Origin: an uncultured Rhodospirillales bacterium | GTDB taxonomy: Bacteria > Pseudomonadota > Alphaproteobacteria > Acetobacterales > Acetobacteraceae | Assembly: GCA_903823665.1 (NCBI GenBank) | Contig: CAIJTR010000153.1 | Coordinates: 1-64,000, forward strand | Length of the DNA stretch: 64,000 nt | Direction: 5' to 3' | Part shown: piece by piece, positions 27,941 to 33,302 of the stretch | Layout: each line of letters opens with the position of its first letter | How positions within the stretch are numbered: position 1 is the stretch's first letter | Translations under genes and position numbers: made by a program | Notes under the pieces: model-generated | Told to the model about the DNA's origin: nothing | What the model saw: the letters and a program-made list of their open reading frames with translations, nothing else | Databases searched by the model: none

Positions 27941-28017
27941 TGGCGTCCCCGGCGGGATTCGAACCCACGGCCCCCAGATTAGGAATCTGGTGCTCTATCC
28001 GGCTGAGCTACGGAGAC
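27941..28017 (-). tRNA. tRNA-Arg (anticodon CCU), CCA encoded
   Basis: A full cloverleaf on the minus strand: acceptor GTCTCCG pairs with CGGGGAC, D-arm GCTC...GAGC, anticodon arm CCAGA-TTCCTAA-TCTGG with anticodon CCT, T-arm GTGGG-TTCGAAT-CCCGC, discriminator G and an encoded CCA. Length 77 bases. tRNA-Arg(CCU) genes are common integration sites; the transposase remnant lies on the side of its 3' end. Confidence 0.95.
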
Positions 28018-28184
28018 GCACGACGGCCTTATAGCGGAGTTGGATTGTGTCGTCAGCCATGTTGTCCGGGGGCTTCGCATAACGCGGTGCGAGCGGTGAT
28101 TTTATCTCGGCCGGCCTGGAAGATGTCTTGCGCGACGTGATAGGTTTCGCACATTGCAGAGAATTTTAGCAAGGGATCTGCGCG

Positions 28185-30251
28185 ATGAGCATTTCAACCA
28201 CAACGGCACCTTATGGCTCGGTTGTCTTCATCACCGACAGCATTGGCGGCGTTGCCTACACCGCGAGCGGGGTGCTGATTGCGCCGGATGAGGTGCTGAC
28301 AGCGAGCCATGTGGTGTATCGGGCGGGCGTTGGCACTGCCGTGAACATCCAGATAAGCCCCGGCTATGATCAGGGTTCGACGCCGTTCGGCACCATCAAC
28401 GGCGCGTCGTTTCAATACAACTCCATCAATGATGCCAATGGGTTGATCACCAATTTTGCCTCACAGCTGGATTTTGCGGTGATCCATCTTGCAAGCCCGG
28501 TGGCGGCTGCGGGCGCAATGGGGCTGGAGGCTGGGTTTGGCGGCGGCAGCGTCAACATCACGGGATATCCGGGTGGGTCGTATGGCGTGCAGGCTCAGTC
28601 GGCTCAGACGGTGCAGGTGCAGCCCACGCTGAACATTCTCGACAGTGTGTCGTTGGGTGCTGGCTCCAGCGGTGGGCCGCTTTGGGTGACGTCGTCCGGC
28701 ACTGCGTATGTTGTGGGGGTGGTGTCGTCGCAGGATACCTATGGCTATGGCTACAATGTGCAGCTGACCAGCGCCGATATTGCGGAGATCACGCGGTGGG
28801 TGAGTGCTGACAATCCGAACGATGTGATCGCCCAGCTTTCGGCGACGGCCCCGAGCGGCCCGTCCTCGCCGGGGCAGAATGTGCCGGCTGAGGATGCGAC
28901 AATCAATCAGCTTTATAGCCTTGTGCTCGGTCGCAATGCCGATGTGGGGGCGTTGTCAGGGTGGGAGGCGCAGCTTGCCGGCGGGCTGAGTGCGACGCAG
29001 ATGCGCGTGGATTTGGCGACCAGCCCTGAGGCAATCGGCGATATTCGTGCCGCGTATCAAAACGAGCTGGGCCGGCCTGCCGATGCTGGTGGGTTGGCGT
29101 ATTTTGATGGTGCGCTGGGAACCTCGCTGTCGCTGTCGGACATTCGCATCACGTTGTCGCAGAGCCCGGAGGCGCAGGCGACGCTGAACAGGCTGTATCA
29201 GGACGTGCTGGGGCGGGTGCCGGATGCAAGCGGGCTTGCCTATTTCACCGGCTCGCTGGCGGGCGGTGGGTCGCTTTCCGGCATTCGTGCGACATTGGCC
29301 AACAGTGGCGAGGCGGCGAGCGATATCACCACGCTGTATCAGAATGAGCTGGGGCGGACCGCGGATCGCGGCGGGCTGTCGTATTTCGCCAGCACGCTGG
29401 CGGGCGGCGGGTCGCTTACGGGCGTGACGAGCTTTCTGGCGAACAGCAGCGAGGCGCAGGGGGATATTGCCGGGCTGTATCAGAGCGTGCTGGGGCGTGC
29501 GCCTTATTCCGATGAGCAGACAGCCGCGACGCAAAGCCTGGCCAATGGCGGATCGCTGGCATCGTGGCGGAGCGGGTTGGCCACCAGCACTGAGGCGCAG
29601 TCCGATATTCGATTGGTTGTGGAGAAATACTTCAACGCGCAGCCCTCGGCGAGCGACCTCAATACGGATGAGCAGCTGTTGGCGAACGGCACGTCATTGG
29701 CGCAGTTTGGGAGCAATGAGGCGGCGGCGGCGAGCGGCGGCAATGTGGGCGTCATTATGACTGTTGCGAGCTTGGCGTCACTGCCTGTTGCAGCGCAAGG
29801 TATTGCAGACGTGGTGCCTCTGCTGCAGACGGACTTTGGAACAACTCCCTCAACCGCTGCCATCAACGCCGCCACGTTGCAGCTGAATTCGGGGCTGAGT
29901 TTTGCAGACCTTTCCGCTCAAGAAACCATTCTGGCGCAAAGCCCGGCGGTGCTGACGGGGGCCAATGTCACGCCAGGCAGCGGGCCTGCGGTGATCGACT
30001 ACAGCCATGACACCGGGTTTGGGCACTACATTGAGGCGTTCAACCCAGGACAGGACATCATTCAGTTCAGCACTGGGCAATTTGCGAACGTGGCGGCGGT
30101 GCTGGCGGCGGAACAGGTATTGAGTGGTACGCCGCCGGGCTATCATTTCACCAATTTCCAAGCGGCCGCCGGGCCGTTCACGCTTTACGTGGAAAACGCC
30201 ACACCGTTCACGCTGACGGCGGCGAATTTCAGGTTCGTTGCAACGCTTTAG
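28185..30251 (+). CDS. Trypsin-like serine protease with DUF4214 repeats, probably secreted
   Basis: A 688-residue protein with two parts. Residues 1-215 are a trypsin-fold protease with the triad His42 (TASHVV), Asp96 (LDFAVIHL) and Ser162 (GSSGGPLW). Residues about 240-480 contain five or more DUF4214 units of the form LYxxxLGRxxDxxGLxYFxxxLAGGGSL. The C-terminal part (DYSHDTGFGHYIEAFNPGQDIIQF) resembles type I secretion targeting regions. There is no N-terminal signal peptide, so export by a type I system is inferred. DUF4214 occurs in phycobilisome-linker-like and S-layer/adhesin proteins. A paralogue without the protease follows 27 bases downstream. Confidence 0.75.
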   Translation: MSISTTTAPYGSVVFITDSIGGVAYTASGVLIAPDEVLTASHVVYRAGVGTAVNIQISPGYDQGSTPFGTINGASFQYNSINDANGLITNFASQLDFAVIHLASPVAAAGAMGLEAGFGGGSVNITGYPGGSYGVQAQSAQTVQVQPTLNILDSVSLGAGSSGGPLWVTSSGTAYVVGVVSSQDTYGYGYNVQLTSADIAEITRWVSADNPNDVIAQLSATAPSGPSSPGQNVPAEDATINQLYSLVLGRNADVGALSGWEAQLAGGLSATQMRVDLATSPEAIGDIRAAYQNELGRPADAGGLAYFDGALGTSLSLSDIRITLSQSPEAQATLNRLYQDVLGRVPDASGLAYFTGSLAGGGSLSGIRATLANSGEAASDITTLYQNELGRTADRGGLSYFASTLAGGGSLTGVTSFLANSSEAQGDIAGLYQSVLGRAPYSDEQTAATQSLANGGSLASWRSGLATSTEAQSDIRLVVEKYFNAQPSASDLNTDEQLLANGTSLAQFGSNEAAAASGGNVGVIMTVASLASLPVAAQGIADVVPLLQTDFGTTPSTAAINAATLQLNSGLSFADLSAQETILAQSPAVLTGANVTPGSGPAVIDYSHDTGFGHYIEAFNPGQDIIQFSTGQFANVAAVLAAEQVLSGTPPGYHFTNFQAAAGPFTLYVENATPFTLTAANFRFVATL

Positions 30252-30278
30252 GACCATACGTTCAAGGAGAAACATCGC

Positions 30279-31751
30279 ATGGCCACCCCAGCTCAGACCG
30301 CTCAAGTGGCTCAGATGTATGTCAATATCCTGGGGCGGCAGGCAGATGCGGATGGATTGGCCTATTGGTCGGGCGCGCTGGCAGATAGTGGCTCGCCCAG
30401 TTTGATTGAGGCGGCGCTGGCCAGCAGCAATGAGGGGCAGGCGGCGCTGGCGGAGATTTATCAGGCTGTGCTGGGCCGTGCGCCTTATCAGGCTGAACAG
30501 GCCGCCGGTGCCTATCACCTGAGCAACGGTGGGTCGCTTGCGCAGGTGCAAGCCACACTTGCGAGCAGCGACGAGGCGCAGAGCGATATCAGCGCGATTT
30601 ATCAGTCGGTGCTCAATCGGGGTACGGACATAAGTGGCGCTGCGTATTTTACCCAGGTTTTGGCCAATGGCGGGTCACTGACCGAGGTGCGGGCTGATCT
30701 CGCGTACAGCCAGGAAGCGCAGAATAATATCTCTAATATCTTTCAATATAATTATTATGGTCAGGCACAAAGCGTTGATATTTCAAATTCTAGCAGCTTT
30801 CTTGCAAAAGGTTATTCATTTAGCGATCTAACTAGTTTGTTGGTAAATTATAATAATATTAATTCTAATGTTAATTCTATTTTCAATATAGAATTAAATA
30901 GATATCCAGAAGCAGGAGTTTCTGAATATTTCACAGATAATATCATTTTTAATGGTAGTTCTCTGTCGAATGTTGCATTTTTCATTGCAGCAAGCCCAGA
31001 ATCGCAAGCCAACATAGTCCAAAGTTATCAAGACATCCTGAATCGTAACCCGAACAGCGCAGAGATAAATGCTTCTGTGCAAATTTTGGCAAGCGGCGGA
31101 GCTCTTACGTCCTTTCAAAACTCGCTAGCGTTTGGTTCAGAGGCACAGTCGGACGTTAATTCAATTATACAGACCTATTTTGGCGCTCCACCCTCGGTGG
31201 TTGATCTTAATGCTGACCTTAGCCTCCTTGTCAGCGCTTCTTACGGTGGTGTCGGCCCCCGCCTCACACTTGCGCAATTCACCAACAACGTGGCCGCCGC
31301 CGCCGCTCAAACATCGGCTGTGACGCAACTTCTCCAGACTGATTTCGGCACTGCCCCTACCACGGCTGCGATTAACGCGGCACTCGTCGAACTCTCCTGC
31401 GGTCTGAGCTTTGCGGATCTCACCACGCAAGAAGGTATTCTTTCTCAGAACCCATCGGTGGTGAAGAGCAATGGTGGAGTGATCATCCTTGGGAGTGGGC
31501 CGGCGATTATTGATGAGACAACGCACAGTTATGATATTCTCAATTTTGATGCGTCAAAGGATATTATCGCTATTTCGCGTGCGGATATTACCAGTTATAC
31601 TAGTTTATCTGAGACTATTTATTACGATATTCGTGGTGTAGGATATGGTGCCATTTCGAGTTATAATTCTATCTCGAGTTCATATTTCTCTCTCTCTTTG
31701 CAGAGCAACCCTGCGCACCCGCTAACGCCCGCCAATATCCAGCTTGTGTGA
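30279..31751 (+). CDS. DUF4214-repeat protein with AT-rich internal block
   Basis: A 490-residue paralogue of the preceding gene lacking the protease domain. It begins directly with a DUF4214 unit (VAQMYVNILGRQADADGLAYWSGAL) and has further units to about residue 290. It ends with the same C-terminal region (LSFADLTTQEGILSQNPS, GSGPAIIDE). Codons 148-227 (30721-30960) are about 25% GC by my count, against roughly 60% either side, yet the frame and repeat pattern continue (SIFNIELNRYPEAGVSEYF). A second AT-rich stretch covers about 31540-31690. I infer recombination with DNA of a different base composition. Likely secreted like its neighbour. Confidence 0.72.
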   Translation: MATPAQTAQVAQMYVNILGRQADADGLAYWSGALADSGSPSLIEAALASSNEGQAALAEIYQAVLGRAPYQAEQAAGAYHLSNGGSLAQVQATLASSDEAQSDISAIYQSVLNRGTDISGAAYFTQVLANGGSLTEVRADLAYSQEAQNNISNIFQYNYYGQAQSVDISNSSSFLAKGYSFSDLTSLLVNYNNINSNVNSIFNIELNRYPEAGVSEYFTDNIIFNGSSLSNVAFFIAASPESQANIVQSYQDILNRNPNSAEINASVQILASGGALTSFQNSLAFGSEAQSDVNSIIQTYFGAPPSVVDLNADLSLLVSASYGGVGPRLTLAQFTNNVAAAAAQTSAVTQLLQTDFGTAPTTAAINAALVELSCGLSFADLTTQEGILSQNPSVVKSNGGVIILGSGPAIIDETTHSYDILNFDASKDIIAISRADITSYTSLSETIYYDIRGVGYGAISSYNSISSSYFSLSLQSNPAHPLTPANIQLV

Positions 31752-31950
31752 TCCGTCCGGCTGATCATTCGCGGCCAGTGACGTCCTGCGGGGACGCATG
31801 CGCGAAGGTCATGTTTGTGGCCGTGCTCTGCACCCTTGGCGATCCTCCTCCCCGTCGTTGCAAGGCCTGCTTTGCCTGCGATAGCGTTGGGGCGGTGTGA
31901 GTGTGCGATTGTCGTGTTGTCGGAATGGATCGCCAGGGAGGGTTTGGTCG

Positions 31951-33270
31951 ATGGTGGATGCTCAGGGCAATGAGATCACGGGTGGCACTGGGGCGTCTGT
32001 GGCACGGCTGGATGAGGCGATGCGGGCGCTGACCATCGGGCATGGCGATGCGTTGGGCATGCTGGATGAGATGATTGCGCAGTCACCGGATATGCCGTTG
32101 GCGTTGCTCACCAAGGCCTGGTTCCTTGCCATTCCGCTGGACCCGAAGCTGGCGCGGATGGCGCAGGCGCTGGTGGACCGGGCCGCCGAGATGACGATGA
32201 ATGAGCGGGAGCGCGCGCTGCTGGGTGCTGTGAAGCTGGTGCTGGCGGGGGAGCGGCGGGCGAGCGTGACGGCGCTGGATGCACATCTGCTCGATTATCC
32301 GCGTGATCTGCTGGCGCATTATGCAGCGTTGTTCGGGGATATTCTGCTCGGGCGCGGGCATCGGATGCGTGAGCGGGTGTTGCGGGCGATGCCGTTCTGG
32401 TCGCCGGACACGCCCGGCTATGCGGTGATGCTGACCATTCTGGGCTTTGGGCTGGAGGAGGGCGGCAGCTACGCCGAGGCGGAGGAGCAGTCGCGGGCGG
32501 CCATTGCGCGGGAGCCGTATATTTATCTCGCGCACCACACGATTGCGCATTGCATGGAAATGACAGACCGGCCGGATGCGGGGCTGGCGTTCAGCCGGGA
32601 GCGGGCGTCGTTCTGGGCGTCTCCGGAGAGTGGGGCGCAGGGGCATGTGTGGTGGCACACGAGCCTGTTTCACATCGAGCTTGGGCAATATGCCGACGCT
32701 TTGGAGCTGTATGACGGCCCGCTGATGCGCACGATCCGTCCGGTTGGGTTCTCGTTGTCTGATCCGGCGGCGACGTTGTGGCGGTTGGACACGCTGGGGT
32801 GTGACGTGGGTGGGCGCTGGGCGGATCTGCTGCCGCGCTGGGAGGATCATGCGGATGGCCGCAGCACGGTGTTCACGGACATGCACGCGGCGATGACGGA
32901 GTTGCGGTCTGGGCGCGAGGCGCTGGCGGAGGCGCGGCTGGGCCGGATGCGCGAGACGGCGGCGGGCGTGGGGGAGGCGGCGGAGATTTATCGTGAGGTC
33001 GGCGTTTCGCTGGTGGAGGCGCTGCTGGCGTTCCATCGCGGAGCCTATGGCGAGACGATTGAGAAGCTGTTTCCGATCCGGCCGGAGGTCTGGCGGATCG
33101 GTGGAAGCCATGCGCAGCGCGATATTGTGGACTGGACGTTGACGACGGCGGCGCTGCGGGCGGGGCGTCGTTCGCTGGCGCAGGGGCTGGTGAATGAGCG
33201 TATGGGTCATCGCCCGGGGAGTGCTGCGAACCGGCAGTTCTCGCGGATGGCGGATCAGTTGGCGGCTTGA
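31951..33270 (+). CDS. TTC38-like tetratricopeptide repeat protein
   Basis: A soluble all-helical protein of 439 residues. Start ATG 31951 follows AGGGAGG; the longer frame from 31897 lacks such a site. Repeated helical pairs include LDEMIAQSPDMPLALLTKAWFL, YAEAEEQSRAAIAREPYIYLAHHTIAHCMEM and GQYADALELYDGPL. The HVWWHTSLFHIELGQYADAL motif is characteristic of the TTC38 family. No signal peptide or catalytic motif. It is convergent with the Ehr operon and transcribed alone. Molecular role unknown. Confidence 0.75.
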   Translation: MVDAQGNEITGGTGASVARLDEAMRALTIGHGDALGMLDEMIAQSPDMPLALLTKAWFLAIPLDPKLARMAQALVDRAAEMTMNERERALLGAVKLVLAGERRASVTALDAHLLDYPRDLLAHYAALFGDILLGRGHRMRERVLRAMPFWSPDTPGYAVMLTILGFGLEEGGSYAEAEEQSRAAIAREPYIYLAHHTIAHCMEMTDRPDAGLAFSRERASFWASPESGAQGHVWWHTSLFHIELGQYADALELYDGPLMRTIRPVGFSLSDPAATLWRLDTLGCDVGGRWADLLPRWEDHADGRSTVFTDMHAAMTELRSGREALAEARLGRMRETAAGVGEAAEIYREVGVSLVEALLAFHRGAYGETIEKLFPIRPEVWRIGGSHAQRDIVDWTLTTAALRAGRRSLAQGLVNERMGHRPGSAANRQFSRMADQLAA

Positions 33271-33302
33271 TGGGCGGCGTCGGGTGCTCGCAATAGCGAC
33301 AC

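Follow-up and report, generated by a model that had tools for sequence, protein, structure and literature searches.

How does a gene in a genome near 62% GC come to carry, without loss of its reading frame, a stretch in which only a quarter of the bases are G or C? This question is raised by the focal gene of this work, a DUF4214 repeat gene in a window of 64 kb, the window being the whole stretch of DNA analysed. The original prediction, made from the sequence alone, had proposed repeat-mediated recombination with a homologue from a low-GC donor, or intragenic diversification of an exposed protein. The coordinates of the features discussed below are collected in Table 1.

Table 1. Features of the focal gene and its surroundings (positions in the window)
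Feature	Position	Strand	Description
tRNA-Arg (CCT)	27941..28017	-	left border of the insert
Lineage-specific insert	28036..33302		about 5.3 kb, three genes; between tRNA-Arg(CCT) and hydrogenase genes
Tandem paralogue	28185..30251	+	trypsin-like domain and DUF4214 repeats; GC 62% throughout
Focal gene	30279..31751	+	490 aa; eight DUF4214 repeat units of 47-52 aa and a 97-aa C-terminal region (ORF, Pfam)
Units 1-3	30300..30722	+	normal composition; GC 57-66%, GC3 66-68%
Unit 4	30723..30863	+	AT-rich; GC 26%, GC3 19%; extra with respect to the paralogue
Unit 5	30864..31007	+	AT-rich; GC 31%, GC3 17%; counterpart is unit 4 of the paralogue
Units 6-8	31008..31457	+	partial recovery; GC 48-56%, GC3 47-56%
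C-terminal region	31458..31748	+	resembles the ends of two paralogues; probable type I secretion end
Third insert gene	31897..33270	+	457 aa; possibly tetratricopeptide repeats (weak TPR_2 match below cut-off)

Composition of the AT-rich part and its edges

The base count on which the prediction was built is correct: 60 of the 240 bases at 30721-30960 are G or C (25.0% by direct count), and this is the minimum among all 240-base windows of the 64 kb (mean 62.4%, standard deviation 4.6). The frame had been said to stay open through the block, and the ORF runs uninterrupted from 30279 to 31751. This is not accidental, since shuffling the block 30723-31007 gave a sequence free of in-frame stops in only 5 of 20,000 cases. 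Position 28185, which had been taken as the start of the locus, begins a separate upstream paralogue, and the focal gene starts 27 bases past the end of that gene.

An assembly artefact, in which two unrelated sequences would have been joined, has to be considered for a draft genome of 211 contigs, all the more as repeats are prone to misjoins. However, frame and repeat phase are exactly kept across the step, the downstream part stays in the same gene family to the C-terminus and the reported contamination is 0.15%, so we consider such a misjoin extremely improbable.

The amino-acid composition is ruled out as the sole cause of the AT-richness, because the third codon positions are shifted as well. 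With the codon usage of the neighbouring genes and the amino acids that it encodes, unit 4 should have 33.4 codons ending in G or C and has 9 of 47 (z -8.2), and unit 5 should have 35.6 and has 8 of 48 (z -9.3). Third-position GC over the two units together (30723-31007) is 18%. Furthermore, all parts of the focal gene from 30723 on have a GC3 under the host expectation, with z between -3.8 and -9.3.

Regarding the edges, the best-fitting segmentation places the left one at codon 149, base 30723, which is a boundary between repeat units, and a three-segment fit with edges at 30723 and 30987 had the best BIC. At this left edge GC3 goes from 0.7 to 0.2 across adjacent ten-codon bins, and the 90-base GC step in the focal gene is 0.32, compared with a largest step of 0.12-0.26 in each of seven neighbouring ORFs. 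The GC drop claimed for 30721-30960 is therefore real, although its limits have to be moved to 30723 on the 5' side and, if whole units are taken, to 31007 on the 3' side.

The compositional junction is sharp on the left only. There is no sharp right edge, and the remainder of the focal gene stays AT-shifted, with a GC of 48% in unit 6, 56% in units 7-8 and 44% in the 97 codons of the C-terminal region. Within this last, possibly secretion-related region there is a second AT-rich dip (31506-31700, GC 35%). The value of about 60% GC given for either side thus holds for the left flank and fails for the right one, and the picture of a block cleanly spliced between two flanks has to be abandoned, because the 3' side recovers only partly. 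The AT-rich stretch is a one-sided step and not a clean two-sided insert.

Repeat units, their relatives and the search for a donor

Both the focal protein and the tandem paralogue score well above the curated Pfam cut-off for DUF4214 (PF13946, 23.2 bits). The focal protein matched over three stretches (E=1.5e-23, 83.1 bits) and the paralogue over five (E=4.8e-32). In the focal protein one of the Pfam matches ends at residue 150, at most 2 residues from the left edge, and units 4-5 by themselves gave no Pfam match. Against a profile of nine sister units they scored 7.1 and 23.5 bits respectively, and none of 500 shuffles of either unit reached its score. The repeat pattern does continue through the block, as had been proposed, and by this comparison the block appears to encode DUF4214 repeats that are degenerate but genuine. 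Predicted from an alignment of two sequences, the structure likewise has the helix order continuing through the block, with low to moderate confidence (mean pLDDT 66.5 overall and roughly 41-69 across unit 4). The focal protein also showed a weak match, under the cut-off, to the phycobilisome linker domain (PF00427, E=0.00044) and weak fold matches to linker domains, the best at E 0.007. The locus has no phycobilisome context, and these matches would reflect at most a distant fold relationship.

Focal protein and paralogue share 39% identity over 399 residues. In the multiple alignment unit 4, with its 47 residues, is left over as an additional module. The identity to any other unit is at most 27% for unit 4 and at most 36% for unit 5, compared with 40-60% for the remaining units; unit 8 is 60% identical to its counterpart in the paralogue. 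Recent exchange with the neighbouring paralogue is ruled out, since the DNA identity of the 5' repeats of the focal gene to the repeats of the paralogue is only about 67-72%.

We searched for a donor in overlapping sets of 60 relatives and about 400 genomes each of the family, the order and the phylum, as well as in plasmids, phages, viral contigs and the genome_contigs collection. The low-GC donor that had been postulated was not found in those genomes, plasmids, phages or viral contigs, where nothing was closer to the block than the paralogue, and two scans of the genome_contigs collection found no relative. Actually, the closest relative found is the adjoining GC-rich tandem paralogue (E 2.8e-16 for units 4-6). 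Block and flanks have this same closest relative, so that the segments do not differ in this respect. A phage or plasmid origin was rejected as well: in the collections searched there was no phage match and no viral-contig relative, and the plasmids had only distant DUF4214 proteins. In genus g54 the homologues covering the block reach an identity of only about 20-25%, and their GC is fairly even.

The amino acids of the block bear on the same point. Lysine and arginine each account for 1 of the 95 residues of units 4-5, which is unusual for a low-GC donor. Such scarcity is typical of the protein family of the focal gene, and in the AT-richer DUF4214 proteins of relatives lysine makes up 2 to 5%. 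As proof of a local origin of the block the scarcity of lysine is suggestive only.

With the donor and a right edge missing, and with the paralogue as the closest relative, change in place stays a serious rival explanation, although on balance we hold it to be somewhat unlikely. According to it, no foreign DNA was involved: after the tandem duplication, relaxed selection would have let units 4-5 diverge and drift towards AT, while the neighbouring units were held GC-rich by selection or by exchange with other repeats. It would account for a block whose nearest relative is the neighbouring paralogue and not a foreign protein, for the most AT-rich units being also the most diverged ones, and for the lysine- and arginine-poor character of the family being retained. 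Nevertheless, the fall of GC3 at 30723 is abrupt, values of 17-19% are very low for this genome, and in the part of it that we sampled in-frame blocks of this kind hardly occur.

The sharp edge at a unit boundary, the extra unit and the lineage-specific setting described below favour instead a mosaic made by repeat recombination. We give about even chances to the explanation that recombination at a unit boundary joined the focal gene to a diverged AT-rich homologue, and that the resulting mosaic repeat protein is specific to this lineage. Units 1-3 would share descent with the adjoining GC-rich tandem array, which at the boundary of units 3 and 4 would have been joined in frame to units from a diverged AT-rich DUF4214 homologue; downstream of the joined units the gene would carry the weaker AT shift. 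Frame and fold would survive such an exchange because all units code for one and the same helical module, about 47 residues long, and the array would be free to gain and swap units. That the left edge coincides with a repeat boundary is what repeat-mediated recombination would lead one to expect; the low-GC homologue that was also part of this prediction is the element that the searches did not supply. We infer both the recombination event and the AT-rich donor.

With mosaic bacterial repeat-protein genes the focal gene shares a unit-sized difference between paralogues, a step at a unit boundary and a preserved frame; it differs from them in that no donor sequence was found for the proposed exchange. 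If the units were exchanged at their boundary, this would be a clean example of a repeat protein that absorbs very foreign-looking DNA with its frame and fold intact, and it would remind us that what is transferred is not always a whole gene. If they changed in place, it would be a striking local decay of composition within a single coding sequence. Neither outcome would alter general understanding.

A variable site between tRNA-Arg and the hydrogenase genes

The focal gene is the second of the three genes of a lineage-specific insert (Table 1). For comparison we drew on eight genomes of the genus, this one and seven others. In congeners G001 and G002 the insert is absent and the conserved stretches lie just about 40-50 bases apart, so that tRNA-Arg(CCT) nearly abuts the hydrogenase genes. 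The interval measures about 255 bases in G003 and holds a different stretch of 2.2 kb in G007. It is a variable site in the genus. At E<=0.001 the seven other genomes contain no relative of the focal protein, and just one of them has DUF4214 at all. Integration at the 3' end of the tRNA is unsupported, since the insert lies on the 5' side of the tRNA and no second tRNA fragment was found in the window. In G003 (contig C78, L195 435-459) some 160 bases past the intact tRNA, 25 bases repeat the 5' part of tRNA-Arg; they are possibly a trace of an earlier insertion.

Such a setting would also suit the acquisition of the whole second gene, or of the three-gene insert, from a lower-GC relative, native GC-rich repeats having later overwritten the 5' part or become fused with it. 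The GC3 deficit of every part from 30723 on agrees with this. However, the GC content of the first and third insert genes is typical, the identity of unit 8 to its counterpart indicates a common ancestry of the downstream part and the neighbouring array, and the 5' repeats are too far from those of the paralogue at the DNA level for a recent overwriting. We therefore regard whole-gene acquisition as improbable.

Probable export, rarity and a chimeric glycosyltransferase

By eye, the C-terminal ends of the focal protein, of the tandem paralogue and of a DUF4214 protein on contig C149 of this genome are alike, as expected for type I secretion substrates. The focal protein had no NCBIfam match to a curated secretion model and a weak match to the C-terminal module of alginate epimerase (E 0.039). 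From these likenesses we infer probable export by type I secretion, with a role at the cell surface or outside the cell. DUF4214 has been described as a domain that likely anchors proteins to the surface of segmented filamentous bacteria (PMC12780176), and a DUF4214 gene was mutated repeatedly in evolved Halomonas populations (PMC11970703); both reports are consistent with a surface role of the focal protein.

Of the 61 DUF4214 ORFs that we compared, none has an internal GC drop as large as that of the focal gene. A general trend to AT-rich blocks in DUF4214 genes is weak: a few GC-rich relatives reach 40-43% GC, and none goes as deep. We also looked for strong in-frame blocks (GC <36% over 200 bases in an ORF >300 aa) in a sample of about 857 kb of the genome, which includes the window and loci picked for their DUF4214 genes. 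Only two were found, in the focal gene and in a glycosyltransferase ORF (L049 3536-5464, contig C149). In several short contigs of this genome most or all of the sequence is masked as N (L076, L085, L163, L180, L184, L188 and L192). Regarding comparable cases in the literature, we found nothing on point. We take the AT-rich focal gene to be real, unusual in degree and ordinary in kind, most likely a mosaic gene of a rare but ordinary sort.

The glycosyltransferase ORF resembles the focal gene in its in-frame AT step, from about 61% GC to 23-30%, and in lying close to another DUF4214 gene. It is a chimeric gene, because its two halves match different protein families: residues 1-330 are 52% identical to a protein of a GC-rich congener, and residues 352-637 are 39% identical to a GC-rich protein of another family in G026. 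The linker between the halves has the deepest AT content (GC3 0.07). Unlike the focal gene, it belongs to a different protein family and its composition changes ahead of the homology break, shifting at codon 246, about 85 codons before the break at residue 330. A compositional step need not, therefore, mark a junction exactly.

It is conceivable, though very doubtful, that in this genus the secreted DUF4214 arrays, and perhaps nearby glycosyltransferases, take up AT-rich modules in frame time and again, at the boundaries of units or domains; if true, surface proteins and their glycosylation would be diversified by a standing process. The DUF4214 protein near the glycosyltransferase (L049 1-2469) contains a long collagen-like Gly-x-y stretch with GATGSTGATG repeats and is probably a stalked surface or secreted protein.
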